DNA of 36,891 nucleotides from a virus: positions 1 to 36,891 of the IMG/VR virus record IMGVR_UViG_3300047551_003174; one strand, written 5' to 3'. The notes beneath the pieces were generated by a model, which was not told where the DNA came from, made no database searches, and saw nothing but the letters and a program-made list of their open reading frames with translations. Shown piece after piece: positions 18,498-35,467 of this stretch. How positions within the stretch are numbered: position 1 is the first letter of the stretch; each line of letters begins with the position of its first letter. A program made the position numbers and the translations under genes.

Positions 18498-21400
18498 TTA
18501 TTTTTTCTTTGTTGAATCTAATAGACCGCCAGAACGTTGTTCATCAACAATAACTTGTAGAACAGCTTCTTTTATTCTGCGGCCCAAGTTAGCATTATCG
18601 CTTTGCTGTTTATCTGTTGAATTTGTCTGCTCAGAAGAGCCTTCTGAACCATTTGCATTTACAGTAATATTGATGCTAACATTATTAGTATTAGAAGATT
18701 CAACATTACCGGGAGTATTATTTTGATTAGCGGCATCGCCAACCATACCACCATCTTCAAATCGGGCGATACCAGAATTAATACGATTCATTCCGCCAAC
18801 GCCATATTTTCTAACAGCACGACTATTAACAATATATTCGCCGCCGCTTAATAATGCTGGTATTGTATCATTTAAACGGTTGCCATATGGTAAATAACCA
18901 CCAGAAGCAAAACGCATTAAACCACCCCTTTGAGCTGTATCACGCATACTTATTACCTGATCTAAACGCCCGGCATCCATCTTTGTTCCTAAAACAGAAG
19001 TTTTAGTCATAGACCCCGATGAAGCAATAGCGCTAGACAAAGAACCCAAACCAGCAGTAAATCCAGCACTTATACCAGTCATAATTAACTGATTAATAAA
19101 TGCTTGACGTTGTTTTTTCTTGGCTTGATCTTTTTCCCATTGATCACGCAATTTACCTAAATAATCTTGATATTCTGGACTTTGTGATTTTCCAAATTCA
19201 CTTAATTGAGAAAATGGTTCAGTAAAATTAGCGCTACCAGAAAGAGAACCTGTATTTTGACCGCCATCCGCAAATCTAGGAAACTGTCTAAAATTTAAAT
19301 TATCTAAAACACTTGGTCCACCTAATGAATCGACTGCATTTCTATTTAAAACATATTCACCATCTTCAAGAAGAGCTGGATTGACATCACCAGTTCTGCC
19401 GCGATCTTGTATACCCATTCCATTTCCGCCAGCCATAGATGGAACATAAATTCCATTTTGGGCACGAATAATACCGCCTCTTCTTCTTGCAAAACTTTGA
19501 GCATTTATTCCGGTGGCAGAAGGGAATGCAGATCCAATACCCATTACTAAATTATTAGCAATTTGTTGATTTAGTGCTTGCTGCATAGTTCTCAAGAAAC
19601 CAGAAGCAACTTCCATCAAAGCAGCGCCCAAGTCATCAGTCTTGTTCATTGCAGCATCAATAGCGCCAGTTAAACCATCTCTGAACGCGAACACCGCTGT
19701 TTTACCAAAGTTTTGTTCAAAGTTTTGTGACTGGGTTACTATTTCTTGAAAACCTTCTTGAACGCCAGTTAAAAATTTACCACGTTTAGCTCTTGCTAAT
19801 TGATTATTTTTAATTCTTTCTTCGTTAGTAGCAATGGCTTCTGTAGTTTTTAATTCATTAAGTTTTAAATCATTAACTACTCTTTGTTGGTTTATGATTT
19901 GACCTCTTAACGAAACTAATTTATTTTCTTCAGCAATACTTAATTCTTCGCCTTTTGCTTTGCGATCTTTTAATTGATCTTCTTGGGCTTGATACCCTTC
20001 TAATATTCTTTCTTGTTCAGAGCGTTGATTTTGTAAATATGCTAAACTTTCATTTAAATTCAAACCCGGCGGAAGTTGAGTTAAATTACTTTTAACTCCT
20101 GATACCGCACTAACAGTTGGTAATTTTTCAGCGGCTTTCTTAAGACTTTGTAAATCTGCTTCTTGATTAGATTTTTCTGTTTTTAACGCAGTAATCTGAC
20201 CCTCTAATGAAGTTTTTTGAGCTTGCAATTGTTCATAGTCTTGGCTTGTTCGAGGAGTTACTTCTTTTTGTTTTAATAATTTCTTTAACTCAAGTTCGGT
20301 TTTTTCAATATCTTTCTTAAGTTTTTCAGTTTGTCTGTTTCTATTTTCTGTATTAGCTTTTTCTAAATCAGAAGGAGTTAAATAATTTGTAATAGCTTGT
20401 TTTGATTCCCTATCGTAATCAGCTTGAACTGTAGGAATTTCACTTAATAAGGTCTGTTGTTTTTTTAATTTTTCCTCCGTCTCAGATATTTGAGTGTCTA
20501 ATTTTTTTTGATCATTAAATACAATAATATCCCTGTTAACTCTATTAAGAAGAGATTCTTTATTTTTAATTTGATTTCCGGTTTGCGCTATTGAATCGGT
20601 AGCTACTAATTGTTTTTCTAAATTTTTTCTAGCAATTGATTCATAAATCGCTTTAGTATTTTCAGCAGTAGCATTGGTATTGGATTCAAGAACTTGACGT
20701 TGGACATCTGCAATTGCAGCATCATTTAAAGCTTGATCTATTGCTAATTTTTGTTGTTTTTCAAAAATTTCCTGTTGAATTCTAAAATTTTCATCTTGAA
20801 CACCAAATTCGCCACGACCCAATAAACGAAATGGTCTTTCCATTTCTAATTGTTTTCTTTCTATTTCGCCTTGACCAGTAATTTGCCTTTTTGCTCCCTC
20901 AAAAGTAATTGACTGAATTAATTCTTTTTCTTTTTGTGCGTTTGCTAATTTAATTTGACTCAATTTAAATTCTTCTTCACCAATTTTTTTCAATAATTCG
21001 ATTTGTTTGTTAGACCAAAACTGAGCAGTATCAAATCTTTCTTTAGCCAATTGACTATCAAGATCAGCCTGTTGTTGCGTTTGTCTAAGTTTTTCAATGG
21101 CTGAAGCTTTTTCGATTTCGCTATTCTGCGCATTTTTTAAATTAATTGTATTTAAAATAGTAATAGCTTCATCAAGATTTCCTGTATTTAATTTATCAAA
21201 AACAGATTGTATTTTTGGTATCTGACCCGGTTGACTTTCTTTTTCTAAAAATTGACTTATAGTTGCAACATTTTGTTGCCTAGCTTTCTTTAAATTTTGA
21301 ATTTGAATTTGAGGAAAAACTCTAGCTTCTAAAGATAAAACTGCTTGCTGTTGAGCGACATTTAAATCATTTATAAATTTATCGATAGAAGGACGCAAAT

Positions 21401-24400
21401 TATCATCAATATTTTTAGAAATTGCAGCAAAAGCTTGATTGATTAAAGCAGAAGTTTTATCTAAATTTAAAGAACCAATTTCTTTTGAAAATTCAAACTC
21501 TTTAATCTGGGTATCAATTTCAAAATTAGCTCTTGAAACTTCTAAATTAATATTAGCAAAAAACTTTCTTAAATTTTGTCCAGCTTGTTTAGCTGTTTCA
21601 GCTGATGTTTTTTTGCCACGTTGTCCACCTCGACCTAATGCAATAATTTGTTTAAAATTCTGTAATAAGGATTTTCCTGGTAAACTATTTTCAATTTGAT
21701 TATCAATTGCAGCTGCTATTTCATTAATTAATTCAACAGTTACTAATCCTTCATCGACGAAAATTTGAAATTTTTTACGAATATCAGCTTCAGTCGTGAA
21801 ATCATCAATAGTTGCAATTGCTTTATCAAATTCTAGCAGTAAATTTTGTTTTTTTGGTTGTTCAGCTATATTTTTTATCTTCTCTTCTAAATCAAAAAAT
21901 GGATCAGTAAAATCAGAAAAAACTTTTGCTAAACGTTCTCTATTTTTATCAAAATCAAAAGAAAATGGTTCAGCTAAATTTCCCCCAACACCTGGAAGTA
22001 TTCCTAAAAGATTTGGTATAGCTTGAAGTGCAGTATCGCCTTTACGAACATCTAATTGAAAACCAGTATTTCTTTCAATGTCTCTTTTTCTTTTTTGGAA
22101 ATTTTTAGTGTCAAAAAAAGAATCAAAATATAAACCAAAATCGCCCAAAATCCCAGCCGCTTGAAACGTATCAAGACCTGATGTTTGTTCAAATTGTTTA
22201 GCCTTAGAAGCTATATTTGCAATTTTTTCTCTTTGTCTGCTTTCAGTTGTGAATTTATCAATAGCTTCATTTAAATTTTTAATACTAACACCAGCAGCTA
22301 TTACTTCGTCTTGTAATCTGGCATTTTGAATACCCTTAACAGTATCTTCAATTTGATAAGAAAGTTCTTTAATTTTATACGGATCTGTTTCTTGTCCAAT
22401 TTGCTGTTGTAATTGAATTAAGTTTTTAACCGCATCAACATCAGCTTTATTTTTTTGAGCTAAATCTTGAGCTGCTTTTTGTAAATCTTCTAGGGTATCA
22501 CTAGTTTTTAATAAAGCAGATCCGAAAGTAACAAGAGCACCGCTAGCCGCTCCAATTAATGGACCAAATGGCCCTAGAATTGGAGTTAATGCGGTGCCAA
22601 TCATTGCGCCTGTTTGAATATTAGTAAAACCACTACCAACAGCTTCATTAGCAAATCTTTGAACGCCTGTTTGTTGAAATCTCTCAGTATTTCCAACAAT
22701 AGCTTGTTGCAATTGACCAGCTACCAATGGCACACCAAATGTTAGTGCCAAATTATTACTCATACCACTAACTCCACGATTCAATCTATCCAATGCTCCT
22801 CTTCTGCCTATTTGAGCATTTAAAGCAGATCCACTAGGATCCATTATATCTATTAGATTACCCCTTCTATCTGTTGTCTGTGTCGGTCTTTGTGGTGTTT
22901 TTGCGCCACTAGTGAGTTGTGATATTTCTTGCGCTGTTGTGTCTAATGTTTGAACAAGCTGTACAACTTCTGTTCTTAAATTTTTAATTTCATCGTCTGA
23001 TAAAAGCAAATCAGTATTTAATCTACGAAGAGTTGATTGCAGCTTTTCTAAAGCTACAGTATATTCGTTTTGTTTATTTGTTATACTGAGTTGATTTTGT
23101 GTTTGTAAGTTTTTAGCTTGAGTAGCAAGATTTCTTGTATATGCTTGAACTTGTGTGGCTATATCTTTTGCTGATGCAGCATCTAAACCATTAGCTGTAA
23201 TAAAATTATTTATTTCTGTAGCTAAACTAGCAAACGCTTGATCTGCTTCTTGTATACTTGTTATTTGCGTAGTTGCTTGAAATTGATTTATTAAATTATC
23301 TATTGCAGTTTGAAAAACTTGCTTTTGATTATTTGTAATCAAAGTTCCGCCAACTCCTTGTTGTATTCCAGAAATTTGAAATTGAGAAGGAGGCGGCGCA
23401 AAATTTGGAATCATTCCTCTCGAACTCAATAATCCTGCGTTTGTTTGATTGGTTATTGAATCTTTTAACGCTTTTTTCTCGCCACCATGATCGCTGATCG
23501 CGGCTGCAAAATTTGGCTGACTTGTGTTTCTGATAAATGGATAAGGCCCAGTTGTCGTATCAAGAACAGCGGTATTATTGCTCAAATTGCTTTCTAAACT
23601 CATTACGTCACTCAAATAACCAGTGGCAAAATTAGGAATAAAACCTTTTGAAAAACTCGATGCGCCTGAAAATCCTGCTCCAATGCCAAATTGTCCTTTT
23701 AATTTTTTTAATTCTTGAGAAGCTTTTTCTTTTTCCTGTAGAATTTGTTGTAAATCTGCTTTTACTCGGGCAACATCAGAAATGAAATTCTTTTGAGCTT
23801 GAGCTGTGTTATTATCTGGTACAAAATCGCCAATTCTATTATCCATCTTTGCTTCGAGCAAACCTATGATTTCGCGAGCTTTATCTAATGGTAAACTTTC
23901 AATTTTTTGATAAGTTTTTTCCTCAGAAAAATCATTCCAAGAAGCATTTTTTAAAGAATTAAAAGCGGCAAAAACTTCGCTTTGTGGCAATTCTTTAAAG
24001 AAAACGTTCTTTTCGTTTTTCTTTGTTTTTTCAATAATATTTGTTAAACCAGATTCTTTTAAATGATTTCTTGTTGATTTGGCAGCATAATCAATAAGCG
24101 ATTGACTGCGCAATTTTCCTTGCATCTGAAAAGTTTCTTCTAAATTTGGAATCGTTAAAACTCCATTTTGAATAAAAGCTTTTATTGAATTTTCAAGATC
24201 ATAAGCTGTTAATCCAAATTGCCTGACTAAACCTTCGTGACTTGGAATTGAATGATGATAAAAAACTCCATTTGGACCAACAAAAGCAGGAATAATATTA
24301 TCAGTAGAATTGGCTTTAACAAAATCATTGAATCGTTTTTTACCATTTAAAGAATCATATTTTCCATCGAACTCGTATCTTTTATTTAAAGCTATAGCGT

Positions 24401-27400
24401 TAGCGAAATTTGGAATGAAACCCATATTCGCAGCCATGTTTTCAATAGCTGTTTGCTTTCTTGCACCAGCTGGAATGCGATACAAAGATTCTTTATCTAT
24501 AGATTCTGGAGCTGTAATTAATTTTAATATTTCATTTTGATACAATTTAACATTATCAGCTTTATCACTCCAAAATTGCGGCGCTATATCTTTAGAAATA
24601 TTTGGATTATTAATATTTTCAAAAGGAAAGCGGAAAAATTTTTCTTCAACATTTTGAAAATTATAATTACCAGCTTTAGCTTCAACTACTGTTTTATCAC
24701 CAACAAAATCCAATGCAGAAGAACTTCCAAATTTGATTTCTTCGTTATTGCTTGTAAATTTTAATTGAGGATATTTTTTCTTAATTCCGGTTTCAAAAGC
24801 TTTACCTTCAGCTTGAATTGCTTTACTTATTTCAGATCTTAATTCTTTTGTGCGTTTTGCCGCTCTTCTAAATTCATTGCTATCAACATTAAGTTTTTCA
24901 ACTTGAATATTGGGTATTGTTAATTGATCTATGATTTTACCCTCATCTTGAACTTTTCCTTTATATGCTTGTTGATTTTTTAAATTTTTTACTGTTTTAG
25001 AAAAACGATCATATTGAGTTAAACGTTGATTATTCAAACCTAGTTTTGCAAAATTTGGAATGAAACCACCAAATTGATTTAATGGAAAATATTCGTAACC
25101 TCCACTAACTTGATATTCAGAATCTTTAATTCCAAGTGCAGCCAATCTTTCTTTTATGCCGGGCAAACCAGCGCCTAAAATGCTAATTTCTTTATGTCTT
25201 TTTTGTCTTAAAACTTGAATGATTTGTTCAAGAGAAGATAAAGGCGCGGTTCCTCTGCGCATTTCTCCTTTTGTATCAGTATAAGCAACTCTGATATTGT
25301 TTAATTGAGATTGTAAATCTAATTCCGGAACATCGATATCAGAAATAGAATTTAAGAAATTTATTCCACCTTCGCTACCTGTTAATTTTTTTAATTTTTC
25401 TTTTGCAACGTTAGCTTCATTAATCAATCGCGGATCATTGCTTCCTTCTGCTCTAGCAATTATTTCTTGCATTGTTCTAATTGCGTTTTCAGAAGCAAAA
25501 TTTGGAATAAAACCATTAGAAAGAAAAGATATTTCTTTTGCAAAATCAGTTCCTTCGAAACCTTTTTTATCAGAAAAAGATTGAAAATTCATGGCAATAC
25601 CTTTACCTAAACCAAAACTACCCCAAGTAGAATGCTCCATCATGAGCTGTTTCAAAGCTTTTTGCCCGTATTTACTTATGAATTTTCTGATGGATTCTGC
25701 GCTAAAGATTCTTGAATTCTTTATTGTTTTCGATCCTACTTTTCCTTCGTCTGAAAAATCACTATCTTGTCTTCCTCTTGCAAAATATTTAGCAATATCT
25801 TCATCTGTAGAAGCGGAAACAAAAGGTAATAATTTCTTTTCTGTTATATGATCATGAGCAATCTTATTTATATCTGTATCGATAAAATAATCAAAAGAAT
25901 TTTTTGCTTGAGAATAATTATTTGATTGTTCAAAAATATCGCGTCTCCATGAACCAGAATATCTTCCGCCTCTATTTTTAACCCCTCTAAAGAGAGTTGT
26001 TTTGCTTCCAAAAACATTTTTATCTTTTACGTCTGGAGTAGATTCTAGATTAAATCTTATTAAATCTCTTATCATTTCCGATCTACTTGCAAAATTTGGA
26101 ATAAAACCATTAGACGCTAAAGACAAAGATTTAAATCCTTGACTCATTAACATTTGTTCAAAATCAGATTCTCTAAGAGGAGCGTTTAAACCTCTTGCGA
26201 CACCAGATTGCGCTCTGAGCTGTCTTCTTTGAGTGATTAGTTCGTTAGGAAGTTCGCCAAAGAATTTTTTCCCACCTGTTTTATTAACAGCATCAAGCTG
26301 TTGCTGGAAATAAGTTGAAAAACCACCTTCTTTAGATAATCTAGATGCAGATAATAATAAGACACGATCACCTTCGTGAATATCTTCAAAATTTGTAATT
26401 GGTTTATATCCTAATTTAGCAGCATAAGTTGTTTTTCCTGCACCAGCTGGAGCAACTAAAATATCTTTTACAATACTAGGATCATTTAAAATTATATTTT
26501 TTAAATTATCAAATTTTTCTCCATAGCTACCGCCGAAAACATCAGAATCATAAACCCAATTAATTGGTGGACGAAGATTAGATGGTTTCTGTTTTGCGAT
26601 ATTTTGTACTGCTTGTGCAATCGCTCCGGCAGTTGCGGCTTTCTGAGGTGCTTGGCCTCTATTGTCAGCAATAAATTTTTTAAAATCAGCGTCTGTTTGA
26701 AATGGAAAAAATGATTTAACTCTTTCAGATTCTTTTGCTAAAAGACTTGGAATATCTTCTGCGGCAATAGACTGTTTATAATAAGCATAAGGCTCACCTA
26801 TTCCCTTCAACTCCTTAAAATATTCCATCAAATATAAACCGGGCGTAGCTGAATCTACTGGATTAAAATAAACGACTTTATTTCCAGACTTAGTTGCTTT
26901 TCCATAATCGTTAGCAACAAGAACATTCTGCCAAGCTTGGCTAGTATACTTTTTAAACAATGAATCAAAAACAGAAGCGTCCCTTGTCCAAGCTTTACCC
27001 AAAGCTCGATCATTTTCATCAGCTGTTTCGATCCAAGGTTTTCCAGTCTTACCTTGGAAAAGTTTTTCAAAATTGCCTTCATCAGTTCTTGCTCTAATGA
27101 ATTTACTTGTTATATTTTCAGGATCTACTTCTCCTCCCTTAAATTCAAAAAATGTTTGAGATGGAAAATCAACTGCATCAATAGCTGTTGTTTTTGGAGA
27201 TCCGGCTAAATTAAGAGACTCAGCAGTAACAGCTTTTGGATATCCAATTTGTTTGAGATGCTGCAATCCAAATGCTTCATAAGCCTGACCTAAATTATCA
27301 TTAATAATTTGATCCGCTGCATTCTTTTCTTTTTCACTAGCATTAGGATCATTAAGAATTTTTTGTAAATCTGGATAAGCTTCTGCAAAAGACTTTCTGC

Positions 27401-29681
27401 TTTGCATTCTAGTAACAAGAGTAGCAGCATTAAAACTAGGAGCGGCTTGCGGAGTTTCTGGAACGCCGGAAATAGATTCTCCTCTTCTTGTTGTAGTAAA
27501 TGTTTTTCCAAGTTTAGCTTCTAAATCTGCTTTTTTGCCTAAATTTTGGCTTTGAACATCGAAATCTTTTAATTTAGCAACTGAATATTGAGCTTCAGGA
27601 TTTGCTTTATTATATTGATCTAAATAATTTCTTAATTGCAAAACTGCTTCTGCATTTTCACGATACCAATTGATATCGCTAAGATTTGCACTGGCAAGAA
27701 AAGCCTCACCGCCCGGTTGAGTTCGTATCCAAGATTTAAATAATCCAGCACCACCAGCAAAATTCGGAATAAATCCTCTTGCTTGATAAGGATTAATACC
27801 TGTTTGTCTAATTGAATTTTCTCTGTGAGCAATTCCTGCCGGAGAATTTAAAGGAGGATTAATGAAAGGTTGAACAAAATTTGGCACATATTTAACTCTT
27901 TCAGCCGTGTTCATTACGCCACCAACCGGAGATGGAACAACTGTACCCGGTTGATATCCACCTAATAAAGAACCTTGAATTTCTTTACTTCGAACACTGG
28001 GTGGAATATATCCAGCACTATAACTCGGAATATAACCAGAAGCTGTAATTCTTCCAACCTGCAAACCAGCAGAACCAACTTGAACATTTTGCCCAACCAA
28101 CAACGGAGCTAATTGCTTCGCTATATTTAATTGTTGCTGATATTGCGCAGTTTGATATGTAGCTAAATTTAAAAGAACTTGCTGTTGGGCTGCTAAATTT
28201 CCAGAATTTCCAATTAAAGCTTGAGCGGTATTTGATTGAGTCTGTAATATTTTTAATATAGATTCTTCAACATCTTTACGTTTTTGAGCTTGAGTAGTAA
28301 TACCAAGCAAAGTCGGTACAGCAGTTGAAATATCTCTAAATGTGTTGCCAATTACCTTTGTAATAATAGCAGCAGCGCCTAATAAAACTGGCCCGCCTAA
28401 AACATTTTTTATGCCTTTTAATAAGCCATTCGCAAAATCAGAACCTAAACCTTCGCCTTCTAATAAATCATTAATATATGTAACAGCATCATTAAATGGT
28501 GAAATTAAACTTTTGAAAACAGGTTCAAATGTTACTTTACCAATATTATTGCTTAATTGTTGTAAATTAGTTCCTGTTTGAGAAATTAAAGCGGCAAGAG
28601 TAACGTTTAACGCTGCATTAGCTTGTTGAGCTTCATTAGTCGCATTAACACCAATTTCTAAAGCTTTATTGTAAGAACCTTGCTGATCATTCAAATCAGA
28701 AAGCAAAGATTTTAAAATGTTAACTTGATAAACACCGGCAACTTGTTCAGCAAGAGAAGATTTTGTTGTATCAGCCAATGTGTTATATGTCTGAGCTAAA
28801 TTTTGTAAAATTTGAACAGCAGGTAAAACATTTCCTTGGATATCGCGAACTGCAACATTAAAATTTTCTAATTGATCAAGAGTTTCAGTTCTTTGTAAAC
28901 GAGTGAAAATTGTTTTTAATGCGTTACCAATTACAGCGCCACCACGGGCAGTTTTTTCTTGGGTAGCAGTGACTAAAGCGTTTAATTGATCAAAATTAAC
29001 ACCAGCTTCTTGCGCGGCTTGACCTGTACGAGAAACAGCGCTTGTTAAGTCAGCGGCTGAAACAGCAAACTGTTGTTCTACAGCAACAATCTTGTTTAGA
29101 ATTGTTGTCGTATCTAATGATGTTTGAGCATAAGCGTTTGTAACGGCAGTTAAATCTTCAACCGCCTGTTTAGCGGATACGCCCGTTAAACGAACAAGAG
29201 TTAAAGCATCAGATACTCTTTGTAATGTTTGTTCAGTTGATAAACCCTGTCTAGAAAATTCAAGGGCAGCGTCAGAAGCATCTTTAAAACTAGATGCGGT
29301 TGCTTTTGCTACGCCAAATAAATCGCTGGAAAACTTTTGTAATCCAGATGACGAAAGAGAAAGAACGCGATTAATATCAACTAAAGCTTTTTCAACATCA
29401 ATAGTAGCAGTTGCTAATTCTTTAAAAGATTTAGCTACACCACCAATGACAGCAGTAGAAGCACCGAATGCAAGAACACGGGCGTTAGAAGCAGCAAGCG
29501 CAGATTGAAATTGTTTTAAATCACCGTTAATACGACCTAACGGTTGAGTAAAACTCTGAGGATTAAATTGTAGATTTAACTGATTCTGCGCTGCAAATCT
29601 GGCATTATATGCTGCTACACCTGCGGCGATACTTTGAGCTAGAGCTGTTTGACTAGCTTGTACATTAATTGTTACTGCCAT
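18498..29681 (-). CDS. Giant tape measure protein with embedded enzyme-like domains
   Basis: 3727 residues, far above lambda H (853). Residues ~1-430 match the TP901-type tape measure core (VEKALVDINRVLSLSSSGLQ; AKATASSFKDASDAALEFSR; EQVAGVYQVNILKSLLSDLN). Residues ~2096-3400 are mostly helical and coiled-coil, interrupted at ~2310-2395 by a hydrophobic Gly/Ala stretch (TPILGPFGPLIGAASGALVT) that may be membrane-active. Residues ~3400-3650 carry two copies of a Gly-rich GEYVLNRNAV / GEYIVNSRAV motif seen in many tape measures. Between these, residues 643-2088 hold globular segments separated by GFIPNFA repeats (listed separately). Tape measure proteins set tail length and leave the virion with the DNA. 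The gene follows two chaperone-position genes, as expected. The start at 29681 (MAVTINVQAS) has no SD but lies close to a TGTAAAT motif. Confidence 0.95.
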   Translation of the reverse strand: MAVTINVQASQTALAQSIAAGVAAYNARFAAQNQLNLQFNPQSFTQPLGRINGDLKQFQSALAASNARVLAFGASTAVIGGVAKSFKELATATIDVEKALVDINRVLSLSSSGLQKFSSDLFGVAKATASSFKDASDAALEFSRQGLSTEQTLQRVSDALTLVRLTGVSAKQAVEDLTAVTNAYAQTSLDTTTILNKIVAVEQQFAVSAADLTSAVSRTGQAAQEAGVNFDQLNALVTATQEKTARGGAVIGNALKTIFTRLQRTETLDQLENFNVAVRDIQGNVLPAVQILQNLAQTYNTLADTTKSSLAEQVAGVYQVNILKSLLSDLNDQQGSYNKALEIGVNATNEAQQANAALNVTLAALISQTGTNLQQLSNNIGKVTFEPVFKSLISPFNDAVTYINDLLEGEGLGSDFANGLLKGIKNVLGGPVLLGAAAIITKVIGNTFRDISTAVPTLLGITTQAQKRKDVEESILKILQTQSNTAQALIGNSGNLAAQQQVLLNLATYQTAQYQQQLNIAKQLAPLLVGQNVQVGSAGLQVGRITASGYIPSYSAGYIPPSVRSKEIQGSLLGGYQPGTVVPSPVGGVMNTAERVKYVPNFVQPFINPPLNSPAGIAHRENSIRQTGINPYQARGFIPNFAGGAGLFKSWIRTQPGGEAFLASANLSDINWYRENAEAVLQLRNYLDQYNKANPEAQYSVAKLKDFDVQSQNLGKKADLEAKLGKTFTTTRRGESISGVPETPQAAPSFNAATLVTRMQSRKSFAEAYPDLQKILNDPNASEKEKNAADQIINDNLGQAYEAFGLQHLKQIGYPKAVTAESLNLAGSPKTTAIDAVDFPSQTFFEFKGGEVDPENITSKFIRARTDEGNFEKLFQGKTGKPWIETADENDRALGKAWTRDASVFDSLFKKYTSQAWQNVLVANDYGKATKSGNKVVYFNPVDSATPGLYLMEYFKELKGIGEPYAYYKQSIAAEDIPSLLAKESERVKSFFPFQTDADFKKFIADNRGQAPQKAATAGAIAQAVQNIAKQKPSNLRPPINWVYDSDVFGGSYGEKFDNLKNIILNDPSIVKDILVAPAGAGKTTYAAKLGYKPITNFEDIHEGDRVLLLSASRLSKEGGFSTYFQQQLDAVNKTGGKKFFGELPNELITQRRQLRAQSGVARGLNAPLRESDFEQMLMSQGFKSLSLASNGFIPNFASRSEMIRDLIRFNLESTPDVKDKNVFGSKTTLFRGVKNRGGRYSGSWRRDIFEQSNNYSQAKNSFDYFIDTDINKIAHDHITEKKLLPFVSASTDEDIAKYFARGRQDSDFSDEGKVGSKTIKNSRIFSAESIRKFISKYGQKALKQLMMEHSTWGSFGLGKGIAMNFQSFSDKKGFEGTDFAKEISFLSNGFIPNFASENAIRTMQEIIARAEGSNDPRLINEANVAKEKLKKLTGSEGGINFLNSISDIDVPELDLQSQLNNIRVAYTDTKGEMRRGTAPLSSLEQIIQVLRQKRHKEISILGAGLPGIKERLAALGIKDSEYQVSGGYEYFPLNQFGGFIPNFAKLGLNNQRLTQYDRFSKTVKNLKNQQAYKGKVQDEGKIIDQLTIPNIQVEKLNVDSNEFRRAAKRTKELRSEISKAIQAEGKAFETGIKKKYPQLKFTSNNEEIKFGSSSALDFVGDKTVVEAKAGNYNFQNVEEKFFRFPFENINNPNISKDIAPQFWSDKADNVKLYQNEILKLITAPESIDKESLYRIPAGARKQTAIENMAANMGFIPNFANAIALNKRYEFDGKYDSLNGKKRFNDFVKANSTDNIIPAFVGPNGVFYHHSIPSHEGLVRQFGLTAYDLENSIKAFIQNGVLTIPNLEETFQMQGKLRSQSLIDYAAKSTRNHLKESGLTNIIEKTKKNEKNVFFKELPQSEVFAAFNSLKNASWNDFSEEKTYQKIESLPLDKAREIIGLLEAKMDNRIGDFVPDNNTAQAQKNFISDVARVKADLQQILQEKEKASQELKKLKGQFGIGAGFSGASSFSKGFIPNFATGYLSDVMSLESNLSNNTAVLDTTTGPYPFIRNTSQPNFAAAISDHGGEKKALKDSITNQTNAGLLSSRGMIPNFAPPPSQFQISGIQQGVGGTLITNNQKQVFQTAIDNLINQFQATTQITSIQEADQAFASLATEINNFITANGLDAASAKDIATQVQAYTRNLATQAKNLQTQNQLSITNKQNEYTVALEKLQSTLRRLNTDLLLSDDEIKNLRTEVVQLVQTLDTTAQEISQLTSGAKTPQRPTQTTDRRGNLIDIMDPSGSALNAQIGRRGALDRLNRGVSGMSNNLALTFGVPLVAGQLQQAIVGNTERFQQTGVQRFANEAVGSGFTNIQTGAMIGTALTPILGPFGPLIGAASGALVTFGSALLKTSDTLEDLQKAAQDLAQKNKADVDAVKNLIQLQQQIGQETDPYKIKELSYQIEDTVKGIQNARLQDEVIAAGVSIKNLNEAIDKFTTESRQREKIANIASKAKQFEQTSGLDTFQAAGILGDFGLYFDSFFDTKNFQKRKRDIERNTGFQLDVRKGDTALQAIPNLLGILPGVGGNLAEPFSFDFDKNRERLAKVFSDFTDPFFDLEEKIKNIAEQPKKQNLLLEFDKAIATIDDFTTEADIRKKFQIFVDEGLVTVELINEIAAAIDNQIENSLPGKSLLQNFKQIIALGRGGQRGKKTSAETAKQAGQNLRKFFANINLEVSRANFEIDTQIKEFEFSKEIGSLNLDKTSALINQAFAAISKNIDDNLRPSIDKFINDLNVAQQQAVLSLEARVFPQIQIQNLKKARQQNVATISQFLEKESQPGQIPKIQSVFDKLNTGNLDEAITILNTINLKNAQNSEIEKASAIEKLRQTQQQADLDSQLAKERFDTAQFWSNKQIELLKKIGEEEFKLSQIKLANAQKEKELIQSITFEGAKRQITGQGEIERKQLEMERPFRLLGRGEFGVQDENFRIQQEIFEKQQKLAIDQALNDAAIADVQRQVLESNTNATAENTKAIYESIARKNLEKQLVATDSIAQTGNQIKNKESLLNRVNRDIIVFNDQKKLDTQISETEEKLKKQQTLLSEIPTVQADYDRESKQAITNYLTPSDLEKANTENRNRQTEKLKKDIEKTELELKKLLKQKEVTPRTSQDYEQLQAQKTSLEGQITALKTEKSNQEADLQSLKKAAEKLPTVSAVSGVKSNLTQLPPGLNLNESLAYLQNQRSEQERILEGYQAQEDQLKDRKAKGEELSIAEENKLVSLRGQIINQQRVVNDLKLNELKTTEAIATNEERIKNNQLARAKRGKFLTGVQEGFQEIVTQSQNFEQNFGKTAVFAFRDGLTGAIDAAMNKTDDLGAALMEVASGFLRTMQQALNQQIANNLVMGIGSAFPSATGINAQSFARRRGGIIRAQNGIYVPSMAGGNGMGIQDRGRTGDVNPALLEDGEYVLNRNAVDSLGGPSVLDNLNFRQFPRFADGGQNTGSLSGSANFTEPFSQLSEFGKSQSPEYQDYLGKLRDQWEKDQAKKKQRQAFINQLIMTGISAGFTAGLGSLSSAIASSGSMTKTSVLGTKMDAGRLDQVISMRDTAQRGGLMRFASGGYLPYGNRLNDTIPALLSGGEYIVNSRAVRKYGVGGMNRINSGIARFEDGGMVGDAANQNNTPGNVESSNTNNVSINITVNANGSEGSSEQTNSTDKQQSDNANLGRRIKEAVLQVIVDEQRSGGLLDSTKKK
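18735..19485 (-). repeat. Two C-terminal GEY(V/I)-N-AV tape-measure repeats
   Basis: Around residues 3400-3530 and 3590-3650 the TMP has two diverged copies of a Gly-rich module: GIYVPSM...ALLEDGEYVLNRNAVDSLGG...RFADGG, and GYLPYGN...ALLSGGEYIVNSRAVRKYG...RFEDGG. This type of C-terminal module recurs in tape measure proteins of many phages, so it supports the TMP call. The copies are too diverged to be recombination substrates. Confidence 0.7.
23646..24401 (-). other. Unrecognised GFIPNFA-bounded domain (residues 1761-2012) of the tape measure protein
   Basis: A 252-residue segment between two repeats. The N-terminal part has IIPAFVGPNGVFYHHSIPSH, with paired histidines (FYHHSIPSHEG) that could be metal- or phosphate-binding. 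A helical part follows (LTAYDLENSIKAFIQNG), then a charged Lys/Glu-rich coiled-coil tail (KADLQQILQEKEKASQELKK). No family assignment is possible by eye. Confidence 0.5.
24423..25046 (-). other. PD-(D/E)XK nuclease-like domain 2 inside the tape measure protein
   Basis: Residues 1546-1753, cleanly bounded by two repeats. It shows the same motif set as the first nuclease-like domain: helix GKAFETGIKKKYPQLKF (Glu1630), then Asp1658 in SSALDFVGDKT, then Glu1667-x-Lys1669 in VVEAKAGNY. The Asp-to-Glu spacing of nine residues and the hydrophobic strand TVVEAK are typical of the family. The segment C-terminal to the motif contains EKFFRFPFENI and a helical tail. Seen: motifs. Inferred: nuclease fold and possible DNA or RNA cleavage after delivery. 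Confidence 0.6.
25068..25493 (-). other. Unrecognised GFIPNFA-bounded domain (residues 1397-1538) of the tape measure protein
   Basis: A 142-residue segment between two repeats. It begins with a charged helix (IRTMQEIIARAEGSNDPRLI) and ends with a Rossmann-like looking strand-turn-helix (HKEISILGAGLPGIKERLAA, then LGIKDSEYQVSGG). I cannot assign a family. Its size and clean boundaries suggest an autonomous domain like its neighbours. Confidence 0.55.
25515..26087 (-). other. ADP-ribosyltransferase-like domain inside the tape measure protein
   Basis: Residues 1199-1389, exactly between two GFIPNFA copies. It has an arginine on a strand (TLFRGVKNRGG, Arg1232) and a Ser-x-Ser-Thr strand followed by an acidic helix (LPFVSASTDEDIAKYFARG, Ser1289-Thr1292). 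This is the layout of the R-S-E class of ADP-ribosyltransferases, such as phage Alt and VIP2-type toxins. The catalytic E-x-E is not certain: no clear ExE motif is visible, and a candidate glutamate lies in MMEHSTWGSF or later. The domain may therefore be divergent or inactive. Confidence 0.42.
26109..26594 (-). other. P-loop NTPase/kinase-like domain inside the tape measure protein
   Basis: Approximately residues 1030-1191. A Walker A-like loop ILVAPAGAGKTTYAAKLG places Gly1082-Lys1083-Thr1084 after a hydrophobic strand. The first Gly of the canonical GxxxxGKT is Ala1077. A second hydrophobic strand (DRVLLLSASRLS) may supply a Walker B-like or kinase lid element but lacks an obvious DE pair. 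The short length and single strand before the loop resemble small nucleotide or zeta-toxin-type kinases more than motor ATPases. That assignment is inference. The domain ends exactly at the second GFIPNFA. Confidence 0.5.
26847..27314 (-). other. PD-(D/E)XK nuclease-like domain 1 inside the tape measure protein
   Basis: Approximately residues 790-945. The fold signature is readable: a helix with GQAYEAFGLQHLKQIGY (Glu802), then Asp835/Asp838 in AIDAVDF, then Glu846-x-Lys848 in FFEFKGG. In the PD-(D/E)XK family the helix glutamate, aspartate, glutamate and lysine bind metal and activate water for phosphodiester hydrolysis. About 90 residues follow with strand/helix alternation (QAWQNVLVANDYG; KVVYFNPVD). 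Seen: the motif set. Inferred: the fold and activity. It is bounded upstream by the first GFIPNFA and has no delimiter between itself and the P-loop segment. Confidence 0.55.
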
Positions 29682-29705
29682 GCATTAATTTACACATAAA
29701 AAATA
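29682..29705 (-). promoter_or_regulatory. Possible promoter/leader of the tape measure gene
   Basis: A 24-base gap between the chaperone-position stop and the TMP start. On the minus strand it reads TTTTTTATGTGTAAATTAATGC before the ATG. The GTGTAAAT core is shared with the gap before 36010. There is no SD. A promoter or an SD-independent translation enhancer are both possible. Confidence 0.3.
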
Positions 29706-31447: not shown

Positions 31448-31481
31448 ACTTATTGTAAATATTATATATTAAATTTCTATT
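31448..31481. promoter_or_regulatory. Divergent intergenic region with likely promoters both ways
   Basis: These 34 bases separate the two divergently transcribed units and are nearly all A/T. On the plus strand TGTAAATA (31454-31461) precedes TTATATATT and the ATG at 31482. On the minus strand TATAAT lies about 13 bases before the ATG at 31447. Both operons must start at or upstream of this gap, so at least one promoter is expected here. With so little room, transcripts would have very short leaders. Confidence 0.5.
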
Positions 31482-31937
31482 ATGGCTACCAGTTTATTAT
31501 CAGCGAGCGAAAAAGAACAGTTGAATCAAGTTATTGATGATGTTCACGAAACATTTGCTCGTACCATCACTGTTTATAAAGAAGCCTCAGAAGTTGTTAT
31601 TATCACCGATCCCAATTTTAACCCATTGTATAATACCGCTGGCCAGACCACATCTATCATTAATACACCAATTTATAAGCAATTTAAAGCAAGAATTCAT
31701 TATAATGACGATATTGGTAAAAAATATTGGAGCGAAGGCGAAGTTAATACACAAATCAAATTACAAGCTGTTGTTGGAACAGTAAGATTAAAAATAGCTG
31801 CTGAAGATTATGATTACATCAAAGACGCAAGACGTTTTGATTTAGATGGAAAAAGATTTGTATTAAATTCTGCATTCAGAGGTCACGGCTTATTTGATAG
31901 TCAATATTATACTATTTATTTGAAACCTGATCCATAA
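31482..31937 (+). CDS. Head-tail connector (stopper-like) protein
   Basis: 151 residues. A helical N-terminus (LLSASEKEQLNQVIDDVHET) is followed by a beta-barrel-like region (ITVYKEASEVVIITDPNFNP; FKARIHYNDDIGKKYW; KLQAVVGTVRLKIAAEDYDY; FDLDGKRFVLNSAFRGHGLF). This is the size and layout of siphovirus head completion or stopper proteins that close the portal channel. It is first in the plus-strand block, with the next gene one base after its stop. Function is inferred from size, strand pattern and block order. No SD is visible (AAATTTCTATT before ATG). Confidence 0.6.
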   Translation: MATSLLSASEKEQLNQVIDDVHETFARTITVYKEASEVVIITDPNFNPLYNTAGQTTSIINTPIYKQFKARIHYNDDIGKKYWSEGEVNTQIKLQAVVGTVRLKIAAEDYDYIKDARRFDLDGKRFVLNSAFRGHGLFDSQYYTIYLKPDP

Positions 31938-31938
31938 G

Positions 31939-32535
31939 ATGCGTATCAGCGATTTAGACTTAAATGATATTTTGAATCAATTAAATTCAGAAAAAGCATA
32001 CACAAAATATGCTGACGATATTATTCAGTCTGAATTTTCAAAAGTTAAATCAGAAATATTACAAGAATTCAATCAACATCCAATAACTGTAGAAATAGAA
32101 GGAGGAATATACGCCACCAACATATCAAATACATTAAGCGGTATTACTAATTTATTTTCTTTTATTGGTTTTGAAGCAAACGATAAACCCATTGAACCAA
32201 TTAGAAATTTATTGGAGAAATCAACAATGCGTAAAAACTATGGTAGAAGAAGCCAAATATCTTACACTTTTGAAATACCAACTGCCAAAGATATATTTTT
32301 ATCTACGCCGTTACCATGGGCAGTTGGCCGCAGCTGGGCAAAAGGAATAGAACAAGGATTATCAGGTCTTGGTTATTATTTAAAGAAAACGCAAAACAGT
32401 CGATCAGGACTCGGCATTCAATCTCAAAAAATTATTCGCCCACAATATCGTTTTAAAAATATTCAATATATTTCAGCATTAATAAATAAATACAATCAAA
32501 GAATCCGCGAAATAGAAAAAAAATATAATCTATGA
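31939..32535 (+). CDS. Neck / tail-completion-like protein
   Basis: 198 residues, basic. The N-terminus is helical (SDLDLNDILNQLNSEKAYTK; IIQSEFSKVKSEILQEFNQH), followed by a short strand pair with a Gly turn (ITVEIEGGIYATNISNTLSG). The C-terminus is strongly basic and helical (INKYNQRIREIEKKYNL). That mix of helix, beta and basic tail fits HK97 gp10-like neck proteins, and the position between stopper-like and terminator-position genes agrees. The start lies one base after the upstream stop, and the stop overlaps the next start by 4 bases (ATGA), so the four-gene block is translationally coupled. I do not recognise a specific family. Confidence 0.5.
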   Translation: MRISDLDLNDILNQLNSEKAYTKYADDIIQSEFSKVKSEILQEFNQHPITVEIEGGIYATNISNTLSGITNLFSFIGFEANDKPIEPIRNLLEKSTMRKNYGRRSQISYTFEIPTAKDIFLSTPLPWAVGRSWAKGIEQGLSGLGYYLKKTQNSRSGLGIQSQKIIRPQYRFKNIQYISALINKYNQRIREIEKKYNL

Positions 32536-33395
32536 TACCAAAATATTCACACGATATAATGACATCGTTTTTTCTGTGGTTTGATAATTTTTTGATGAAC
32601 AAAAGCCAAGCATTTAAAACGTACACAACAAAATTATATAATTATTCAGACGATAGAGTAGGTGGCGGCAAAGTTGTTTATGGAAGTCCATATAAACAAT
32701 GGGTTTATGATAACGGTGTAGCGGGCGCAGTAATTCCCAGCGGTTTAACTGTGAATGGAACATTTGTCCCAACAGGAACAAGTGGATTATATTTTGATTT
32801 CGATAATGGTCGCGCAGTTTTTAATAGCGGAGTATCAACAGGCTTAAACATAACTGGAACATATACAGTTAAAGAAATAAATACATACATTACAGATCAA
32901 CCTGAAGACGATTTAATAATTGAAAATAAATATATACAAAACAGTCGTTTTACAGTTACAGAAAATTATATTAGTCCATATAATCCAGTTACTCCAGCAG
33001 CTTTTTGTTCTATCGAAACAATGGATAATGAAGGTTTTGCGTTAGGAGGTTTAGATGAAACTTCTATTAGAGTTAAAGTAGTTGGTTTTTGTGAAAATCT
33101 TTATCAGTTGGATGGTTTATTAAGCACATTTGCAGATGCATATAATACTTGTTTTAAAATTGTGCCTATGACAGGACATCCACTTGGTGAATTTAATAAA
33201 TTAAAAACAGGAGTATATCCAACAGGATACGACTATAAAAATGCAATAACAAGCCCTACGTCAATGGGGCCTTGTTACATATATAACGTAGACACATCTA
33301 AGATACGCGACAGCGTATTACGCGAACTCAATCCAACATTGCACATTGGTTTCATTGATTTTGAGATTGGAAACATTCGATATCCAAGAATTTAA
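32532..33395 (+). CDS. Neck protein in tail-terminator position
   Basis: 287 residues. It begins with an amphipathic helix (DIMTSFFLWFDNFLMNKSQA), then a beta-rich insert with Gly/Thr/Val (IPSGLTVNGTFVPTGTSGLY), and a C-terminal region with FALGGLDETSIRVKVVGFCE and LHIGFIDFEIGNIRYPR. Tail terminator proteins (lambda U-like) cap the tube and attach it to the head; they are usually 130-180 residues, so this one is long. It lies directly upstream of the major tail tube gene, the expected place. Function is positional inference. A 59-base AT-rich gap follows, suggesting separate expression of the tube gene. Confidence 0.45.
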   Translation: MIPKYSHDIMTSFFLWFDNFLMNKSQAFKTYTTKLYNYSDDRVGGGKVVYGSPYKQWVYDNGVAGAVIPSGLTVNGTFVPTGTSGLYFDFDNGRAVFNSGVSTGLNITGTYTVKEINTYITDQPEDDLIIENKYIQNSRFTVTENYISPYNPVTPAAFCSIETMDNEGFALGGLDETSIRVKVVGFCENLYQLDGLLSTFADAYNTCFKIVPMTGHPLGEFNKLKTGVYPTGYDYKNAITSPTSMGPCYIYNVDTSKIRDSVLRELNPTLHIGFIDFEIGNIRYPRI

Positions 33396-33454
33396 TTTCC
33401 CATATATTCAAAAATTCTGTAAAACATTATAACAATTTAAACAAATAAAAACAT
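33396..33454 (+). promoter_or_regulatory. Gap upstream of the tail tube gene with promoter-like sequence
   Basis: These 59 bases are AT-rich. CTGTAAAACATTATAACA is visible here, with a TGTAAA core and a TATAA-like element, about 20-35 bases before the ATG at 33455. An extra promoter before the most abundantly needed tail protein is plausible. The immediate leader (AAACAAATAAAAACAT) is A-rich and lacks an SD. Confidence 0.4.
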
Positions 33455-34882
33455 ATGTCAAGAAATCGTATAATTTATCAAAGCAAAGCTTTATTTATCG
33501 GTCCAAATTCTACAGGTATGCAGACTTGGCCGAGTGGCGCACCTCTTCCAGCTTCGTATGATCTTACAGCAACAGGATATGCAGCATTAGCCAATAATGC
33601 AAAATCATTTGCTAGAACTGGAGATTCAACCAATCTTACTGGACCCCAAGTTGTTAATGGCACTGGTCTCCTTTATAAATTAGATCGTGTACAAAATTGT
33701 AATTTTAACTTTACAATCAATCGTCAAGATATTAATGAATTTGGCAAACTTGCTCGTATCGCTACTATTGCAAATGAGCCACCAACAGTCACTTTAGATT
33801 TCAGTTATTATTTAACTGATGGTTTAAATGAGCGTTTAATGGGATTCAATTTCGGTGGCAGTTTAACAGGAAACGCTGGTGCCCCAAGCTGGGACACTCA
33901 AATGGTTTCTGGAGCCAGCGCCCTTTCTGGTTTCTTAAGAGAAACACAAGGTCAAAACTACTATATTCTTACTGTAGATGAGGGTGAAGACGTTGTCGGC
34001 GCAAGTCCAACAAGCTCAACAGACAGCATAGTTGCTATCGGTAATGGTTTCTTAACGGAATACGCATTCACCGCTTCTGTAGGCGAAGTTCCAACTGCAA
34101 ATGTTACCATTGAAGGGTTTAATATCAAGAGTGATGTTGGTCAAAATGGAGCTTTTGGCTATACTGGATCTAATCCAGCTATTGATACTTCAGCGTCACC
34201 TGCATCAAGAATTACAGGTTATAATAAGTATTATAAAATTAACGCTGCACAAATCGCAACTGATGCAGGTACAGGCGCAGCAACTGTTTCTGCTTTACGA
34301 CCCGGCGATATTGTATTAAGTTCTGTAAGTACTGATAAGACAGCTGAAGATCCAATGGTTCAAGTTACAAACTTTGGAGATGATAGCGTAAGAGTTCAAA
34401 GTTTTGGATTTACTATTCCATTAACTCGAACTGTATTAAGCCGCTTAGGCACATTATTCGGCTACAACAGAGTTGTTCAAGTTCCATTGAACATGGATGT
34501 TACAATCAATGCCCTTGTTAACGAATTGGTATCTAAAGACATGTTTGATGTTCTTTGTGGCGATCAACCTAAGAAAGACTTCACAATCACATTAAAGAAA
34601 TGCGCTGATACCACTGACACATCAGCTGAATCTAAATTAGCATTCACCTTCCGTGGTGCTATTTTAACAAGCGAAAATCATTCAACAGATATCGGTGGTA
34701 ATGAAACTGTTGATTTGACATATTCAATTCAAATCGGTGGCGCTAACGACAACGAAAACGGCATATTCATGAGCGGAAGCTACAACACTGGTAATGCAGC
34801 CTTGAATGCTGCTTATCCTTATCTTGGTTTATCAGGATTACTAACCAATTTCTACGGTATCGGTACTGCTAGAAATTATTAA
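33455..34882 (+). CDS. Major tail tube protein
   Basis: 475 residues. Seen: two beta-sandwich-like halves with alternating hydrophobic strands (QNCNFNFTINRQDINEFGKL; ANEPPTVTLDFSYYLTDGLN; GFLTEYAFTASVGEVPTANV; DSVRVQSFGFTIPLTRTVLS; ESKLAFTFRGAILTSENHST; ETVDLTYSIQIGG). Codons are noticeably more GC-rich and G-ending than in the tip genes, as for a highly expressed gene. The strong terminator directly after it also fits high expression. Residues 198-228 resemble the distal tube-like protein after the TMP. Position after the terminator-like gene and, in an inverted view, before the chaperone genes fits a tail tube. A sheath is unlikely because no contractile-tail genes are present. Confidence 0.72.
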   Translation: MSRNRIIYQSKALFIGPNSTGMQTWPSGAPLPASYDLTATGYAALANNAKSFARTGDSTNLTGPQVVNGTGLLYKLDRVQNCNFNFTINRQDINEFGKLARIATIANEPPTVTLDFSYYLTDGLNERLMGFNFGGSLTGNAGAPSWDTQMVSGASALSGFLRETQGQNYYILTVDEGEDVVGASPTSSTDSIVAIGNGFLTEYAFTASVGEVPTANVTIEGFNIKSDVGQNGAFGYTGSNPAIDTSASPASRITGYNKYYKINAAQIATDAGTGAATVSALRPGDIVLSSVSTDKTAEDPMVQVTNFGDDSVRVQSFGFTIPLTRTVLSRLGTLFGYNRVVQVPLNMDVTINALVNELVSKDMFDVLCGDQPKKDFTITLKKCADTTDTSAESKLAFTFRGAILTSENHSTDIGGNETVDLTYSIQIGGANDNENGIFMSGSYNTGNAALNAAYPYLGLSGLLTNFYGIGTARNY

Positions 34883-34898
34883 TAGATAAAAACAAATA

Positions 34899-34926
34899 AC
34901 CCCAGCCGAAAGGCTGGGGTTTTTTT
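34899..34926 (+). terminator. Intrinsic terminator, likely bidirectional
   Basis: A perfect 9-bp stem, ACCCCAGCC (34899-34907) and GGCTGGGGT (34912-34920), with a GAAA tetraloop, followed by six T residues (34921-34926) continuing into a T-rich run. It lies 16 bases after the tube stop. On the minus strand the hairpin is followed by TATTTGTTTTTATC, so it may also stop transcripts of the convergent adaptor gene ending at 34949. Confidence 0.93.
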
Positions 34927-34948
34927 ATTTTCTTTTTTTAAATTTTTT

Positions 34949-35467
34949 TTAAATAATGGAACTGTGATATCCGTAAGGATAATAAAAATAACCAGATCCA
35001 GTATAAATAGGCGAACCATCTTCGCCCGCGACTTGGCGCGGCGCAGCTTGATAAATATTATAAGCAGTTACTAAACGTTCCATTTCTTCACGCGCATCGT
35101 TAGCTAAACCACGATAAGTTTTTGCTAATTCGTTTTTATTTGTGCGGGTGATTGCGGTATCGCCTTCGCGCAAAGAAATAAAATCAACGGCTGAATCAAC
35201 GCCTCTTAATACTTGGCGTGTTTTCTTTGTATAAAATTCGTACAAATACATCTGCTTGTATATTGCACGCTCTTCTTGCTTGAAAGAATCAGTCGGCGTA
35301 AATTCGCCATTTTCGACGCTGAAACTTGTAAATATTTTATTATTTAACAAACCAACATTATTAGCTAACCAACCGCTAATAAAATAAAATTGCGCATAGC
35401 CGCTATCGTATTCAAACTCATTGGCAAAAATTTCATCCGCTAAATTGTGTACGCTATATGTAACCAT
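34949..35467 (-). CDS. Head-tail adaptor / connector-like protein
   Basis: 172 residues, mostly helical with conserved-looking aromatic patches: YAQFYFISGWLANNVGLLNN, AIYKQMYLYEFYTKKTRQVL, LAKTYRGLANDAREEMERLV. The helical bundle with a short beta loop (SFSVENGEFTP) and a proline-rich C-terminus fits head-tail adaptor proteins that bind the portal. The context agrees: it would come first in the neck order if the plus-strand block is read inverted. It ends next to the convergent terminator and begins three bases after the upstream stop. No SD was seen. The family assignment is tentative; that it is a virion neck protein is fairly likely. Confidence 0.6.
   Translation of the reverse strand: MVTYSVHNLADEIFANEFEYDSGYAQFYFISGWLANNVGLLNNKIFTSFSVENGEFTPTDSFKQEERAIYKQMYLYEFYTKKTRQVLRGVDSAVDFISLREGDTAITRTNKNELAKTYRGLANDAREEMERLVTAYNIYQAAPRQVAGEDGSPIYTGSGYFYYPYGYHSSII

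Follow-up and report, generated by a model that had tools for sequence, protein, structure and literature searches.

The window, 36,891 bases that make up one whole IMG/VR record (IMGVR_UViG_3300047551_003174), carries a minus-strand late module that encloses four plus-strand genes (31482-34882). This arrangement probably goes back to one ancestral flip, in place, of the segment from N151 to T475, which may have been kept by a putative new promoter box and a predicted bidirectional terminator. Genes are labelled by the length of the window protein in amino acids (A172, T475, N287, N198, N151, C251, C328) and their positions are given in Table 1. The window departs from the collinear order from adaptor to tape measure protein (TMP) on one strand, as its block lies on the opposite strand. 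Four plus-strand genes within a minus-strand module had been described from the letters of the window, and this was confirmed by the ORF coordinates and by synteny in 42/42 close contigs. Mean column identity was 58-82% for the four block ORFs in 20-sequence alignments and, together with the 42/42 synteny, this indicated that all four are real genes. GC skew was about zero over 32-35 kb as compared to about -0.11 in the flanks, in agreement with an inverted block. The window ends after two decoration-like genes (Ig-like and laminin-G-like) and stops short of the head genes, so the strand of the head genes is known from relatives.

Table 1. Features of the inverted block and its surroundings in the window.
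Feature	Position	Strand	Description
TMP	18498-29681	-	3727 aa
C328	29706-30692	-	second of two chaperone-position genes
C251	30692-31447	-	251 aa, heads the divergent tail operon
Displaced block box CGTGTAA	31427-31433	+	within C251, at its 5' coding end
Divergent intergenic region N151/C251	31448-31481		34 bp
N151	31482-31937	+	151 aa, first gene of the inverted block
N198	31939-32535	+	198 aa
N287	32532-33395	+	287 aa
T475	33455-34882	+	475 aa
Convergent intergenic region	34883-34948		contains the predicted bidirectional intrinsic terminator
A172	34949-35467	-	172 aa, closes the head module

To assign the block proteins we combined profile searches, structure models and gene position. N151 was modelled with AlphaFold2 at a pLDDT of 73 (31 diverse sequences), and its top 14 PDB fold matches were all phage connector or neck chains (probability 0.87-1.00, with modest E values of 2e-3 to 3e-2), led by SPP1 gp16 (7z4w, E 2e-3; 2kca) and including the T1 stopper and lambda neck. 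Matches in BFVD included proteins named 'head-to-tail stopper' as well as neck proteins, with E values down to 9e-6. As modelled, N151 has the SPP1 gp16-type fold of a head-to-tail stopper (head closure). N198 was conserved in all arrangements with the motif PWAxGRSWAxGIExGISGLG and had no PDB, Pfam or PHROG match; it is named a neck-position protein by position only. N287 lay between N198 and T475 in every arrangement; it was conserved, had no database match and is likewise placed at the tail-terminator position. T475 is the probable major tail-tube protein, mainly by position: members of its family weakly matched different PHROG major tail protein families, none significant individually, its AlphaFold model was unusable (pLDDT 34.5) and some relatives also had family members in the distal tail. 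C251 and C328 lie between T475 and TMP in uninverted relatives and are named for the tail-assembly-chaperone position; C328 had a weak PHROG match to a tape measure family. A172 is named for the adaptor position, and P678 and H391 were taken by position as portal and major capsid protein (MCP). PDB profile searches with A172, N151, N198, N287 and T475 gave nothing above noise, and sequence searches of cultured phages with T475, N198, N287 and A172 gave no match. Of the neck and tube identities in the original prediction, the stopper fold of N151 was upheld, while adaptor, terminator, tube and chaperone stay mainly positional names.

TMP matched several tape measure families in PHROG, one with an E value of 4e-41, and was followed downstream by J-like (phrog_31, E 6e-114), I-like and L-like tip genes, with phrog_32 and phrog_18 also matched, which identifies a lambda-like siphovirus tail. 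TerL of the longer relatives matched phrog_2 (E 3e-24). Tape measure proteins of the clade ranged from about 1457 aa upward. In the window TMP, residues 635-2088 hold seven repeats of the GFIPNFA type, separated by inserts that look unrelated, one of which has a P-loop-like APAGAGKT, and an uninterrupted 10,562-aa ORF was found in the tape-measure position of a relative with arrangement S1 (described below; L341+L321+L322, IMGVR_UViG_3300021958_000045, contig 14087-45775, minus).

Close relatives were collected by T475 and A172 searches and then placed on a synteny map. The block was carried by 42 distinct contigs with T475 identity of about 42-80%. The arrangement TMP- C328- C251- N151+ N198+ N287+ T475+ held in all 42 as far as the contigs reach, suggesting that the block orientation is old and fixed in the window group. 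A172 was on the minus strand in close block-bearing contigs wherever it was present. Its strand ran on into H140, H391, H224, H532, P678 and TerL in G004 and G008. A172 came downstream of MCP-H140 in the collinear relatives, in G004 and in L136; in G008 it stood behind additional genes. G003, G005 and G007, which also belong to the window group, had other genes beyond A172 on the head side. Two contigs, L060 and L065, carried A172 without an adjoining block. Here close A172 homologues sat beside glycosyltransferase-, nucleotidyltransferase- and dioxygenase-like genes, named by eye (L065 1565-11559; L060 downstream of 10507). A reading of A172 as a non-head gene, considered from these two contigs, was dropped because A172 comes right after MCP-H140 in most relatives.

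Deep relatives were mapped using profile scans and iterative HMM mapping, with the head drawn as plus. The head module TerL-P678-H532-H224-H391-H140-A172 was nearly always collinear and the variation lay beyond A172. Arrangement S1, found in 16 contigs from several lineages, was uninverted (A172+ N151+ N198+ N287+ T475+ ... C251+ C328+ TMP+), giving the order portal-MCP-A172-N151-N198-N287-T475-C251-C328-TMP on one strand. The window type, S2, was found in about 83 contigs including the window (A172+ T475- N287- N198- N151- C251+ C328+ TMP+). Seven contigs were placed in S3, where the whole divergent unit was flipped (A172+ C328- C251- N151+ N198+ N287+ T475+ TMP+), two of them (L266 and L278) from A172+ C328- alone, with contigs ending inside or just after C328. 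In S5, seen in 2 contigs and probable others, A172+ was followed by the entire distal tail in minus orientation (J- ... TMP- C328- C251-) and then by N151+ N198+ N287+ and a tube gene by position. Each of the three inverted arrangements was one inversion away from another arrangement: S1 and S2 differed by N151-T475, S2 and S3 by T475-C328, and S2 and S5 by the segment from T475 to the tail end. It had been predicted that flipping the block back would restore the textbook order, and the proposed synteny comparison found exactly this order in the 16 collinear contigs; orientation was thus not shared by all relatives, deep ones included. The later rearrangement into two more arrangements and the displacement of the promoter-like box in the window (below) had been missed.

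One breakpoint could be placed more closely. A gene of about 95 aa was found just before C251 in S1 contigs (L212, L247, L256, L298 and L301) and in S2 and S3 lineages, which places one breakpoint between T475 and this gene. In the window group this gene has been lost and the divergent N151/C251 gap measures 17-64 bp; in other inverted lineages the gap contains the gene and is about 200-400 bp long. The A172 junction was an insertion hotspot, with 1.1-14 kb of extra genes before the flipped block in L136, L269, L270, L288, L295 and G024. A172 and C328 converged without a gap in three S3 contigs (L191, L220 and L255), their stop codons overlapping in TTAA. Two clade members, L220 (JAQXAG010000048.1) and L221 (PBIO01000001.1), sit in MAGs named Neomarinimicrobiota and Halobacteriovorax, which may be host hints or binning errors.

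Transcription signals were assessed across the same loci. The box WGTGTAW was positioned 15-20 nt before late-gene start codons clade-wide: the 40 nt upstream of 649 genes held 118 occurrences as compared to about 10 expected from shuffled sequence, with a peak at -15/-16. It preceded P678, H532, A172, TMP and others. The box preceded internal N198 at 0/15 collinear and 1/66 inverted loci (1/81 loci of known arrangement). The box marked the first genes of units and not every gene, and we read it as a putative late promoter. The presence of the box changed with arrangement, in counts that come from related sequences and not from independent events. Before N151 it was found in 0/16 S1 loci, 51/59 S2, 5/5 S3 and 2/2 S5, or 58/66 inverted loci, and before A172 in 0/16 S1 and 46/63 S2 loci. 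TMP had the box in 8/10 S1 and 42/58 S2 loci and in 0/2 S3 loci, where TMP follows T475. A sigma-70 scan was uninformative (42 sites as compared to 32 expected) and no published match to the WGTGTAW box was found in the literature. The box occurred in late genes of 21 contigs and in the window before 7929, 17378, 29681 and 36010 (minus). A box 15-20 nt upstream leaves little room for a leader, and it looks like a clade-wide late promoter that would give short-leader or leaderless transcripts.

In nearly all other inverted relatives, the start of N151 was preceded at 15-20 nt by an AGTGTAA-like box. The S2 exceptions were the window subclade (L002, L003, L008, L010 and L013), with CGTGTAA- or TGTGTAA-like boxes about 50 nt upstream, inside C251. 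As the box is displaced into C251 coding sequence, the case for a divergent promoter region is weaker in the window than in relatives. TMP of the window had its own TGTGTAA box at about 29690-29696. The original prediction of a divergent promoter region was correct in that the 34-bp gap exists, while the box itself lies within C251; its suggestion of new transcription signals agreed with the gain of a putative promoter box before N151 in inverted loci.

The convergent end of the block held the stem-loop AACCCCAGCC-GAAA-GGCTGGGGTT at 34898-34921, which scored as a terminator on both strands with z-scores of -5.3 and -6.1. Its stem was kept by compensatory changes in relatives (for example CCCCAGCC/GGCTGGGG, CCCCAGTC/GACTGGGG and CCCCGTCC/GGACGGGG). 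This is a strong predicted terminator acting on both strands and conserved at the convergent end, as had been proposed for the window.

To assess how often and in which direction the block changed, we compared trees of the block, its flank and the head genes. In the block-gene tree S1 fell outside and all inverted rows formed one clade (SH-aLRT 100), and the C251+C328+TMP tree gave the same result (SH-aLRT 99). With this single-branch split, one ancestral inversion explains the divide between collinear and inverted loci, and the congruence of block and flank trees points to an inversion in place and not to replacement by a foreign block. Together with the uninverted state in 16 contigs, the split supported the ancestral inversion that had been proposed. 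The S3 row L191 lay within or beside S2 rows in all trees, suggesting that L191 flipped later. The head-gene tree had no clean single split and needed at least 6 changes. For the head genes the one-clade constraint was rejected for S2 (p 8e-64) and weakly rejected for collinear S1 (p 0.028), and a single origin of S3 (A172+ C328- C251- N151+) was also rejected (AU p 3e-46). This conflict is best read as head/tail module exchange or weak deep resolution.

The trees are unrooted in themselves, and the root was chosen by the long collinear branch and by the gene order usual in siphoviruses rather than by an independent outgroup; on this root and this order, which is also that of Slash, we infer that S1 came first and the inverted forms followed. 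With such rooting the opposite direction has to be weighed, with the inverted order ancestral in the clade and the collinear phages regaining the usual order later. We consider this unlikely, as collinear forms occupied at least three deep branches of the block and flank trees including the deepest (the L139 group, L212 and the L214/L256 groups), and the N151 start adjoins the A172 stop in collinear loci as in an old operon. The collinear order is also that of siphoviruses at large and of the distant cultured phage Slash (TMP 27% and TerL 25% identity), in which all annotated genes of the region are on one strand.

Replacement of the block by that of another phage, inserted in the opposite direction, could draw on the A172 junction, which accepts insertions (1.1-14 kb; L136, L270 and G024), and on the disagreement of the head tree with the tail trees. 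However, it was largely refuted and is very unlikely, since the trees of the block genes and of C251-C328-TMP were almost identical and split alike, and exactly the four expected genes were flipped in the window group, with none duplicated and none missing. That the block is an active switch flipping within a population (phase variation) is hardly credible despite several rearrangements in the clade with genes intact in all arrangements, because all 42 close block-bearing relatives had one orientation, no recombinase gene was recognised beside the block, flipping would separate N151 from its promoter-like box, and the inspection for recombination sites at both block ends turned up no long inverted repeats that match each other, the only matches there being AT-rich ones of 70-80%, of a kind also seen in the rest of the region.

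The favored history, an ancestral flip in place, would begin with the head genes, A172, N151, N198, N287, T475, C251, C328 and TMP all on one strand. Flipping of N151-T475 would have cut the block loose from the head operon, and the flip may have been kept because a WGTGTAW box arose before N151, with the terminator keeping the convergent transcripts from running into each other. Neck and tube would then be made from their own late transcript, apart from the chaperones and the tape measure, and sister lineages would have reshuffled the region again later. Promoter function, decoupled expression and the direction of change are all inferred here. There is about an even chance of a broader reading, in which the neck and tube genes, the two chaperone genes and the entire tail each form a late transcription cassette of their own. 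These cassettes would have been inverted and joined again to the head module repeatedly, giving four arrangements through at least 4-6 changes, and a short late-promoter box that came or went at each flip would have made this possible.

Few features of tailed phages are as conserved as the order of their head, neck and tail genes, which serves in their annotation and classification. It is an old question whether assembly requires this order or whether only history and shared transcription maintain it. The clade is a natural experiment on this question, with the same genes in four arrangements, a surviving uninverted state and promoter-like boxes that come and go in step. Rules that assume a fixed order would give wrong names to genes in these uncultured phages, which are abundant, with at least 588 MCP loci counted.

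T475, N198 and N287 had no sequence similarity to cultured phages, and no report of a neck/tube inversion of such kind was found in the open-access literature. Unlike Gin/Cin/Hin-type invertible switches, the block had no inverted crossover sites at its ends and no recombinase was recognised adjacent to it. The late modules of lambda, HK97 and SPP1 (portal-MCP-adaptor-stopper-terminator-tube-chaperones-TMP-tip) agree with the window in gene content and order after the block is flipped back, the modelled N151 appears to share the stopper fold of SPP1 gp16 and lambda FII, and similar tip genes to those of lambda follow TMP (J-, I- and L-like PHROGs). In contrast to the canonical siphovirus module, the genes from stopper to tube run on the opposite strand and have a promoter-like box and a terminator of their own. 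T4-type late promoters are short fixed boxes directly before individual late genes. The likeness is that many late genes are preceded by one short fixed box, which would free gene orientation, whereas the candidate box here, WGTGTAW, lies 15 to 20 nt ahead of the start codon. Local reordering within an otherwise fixed late module is also seen in Caulobacter phage Colossus, where one holin gene of the lysis cassette was transposed (PMC3556154), whereas here the change is an inversion of neck and tube genes.
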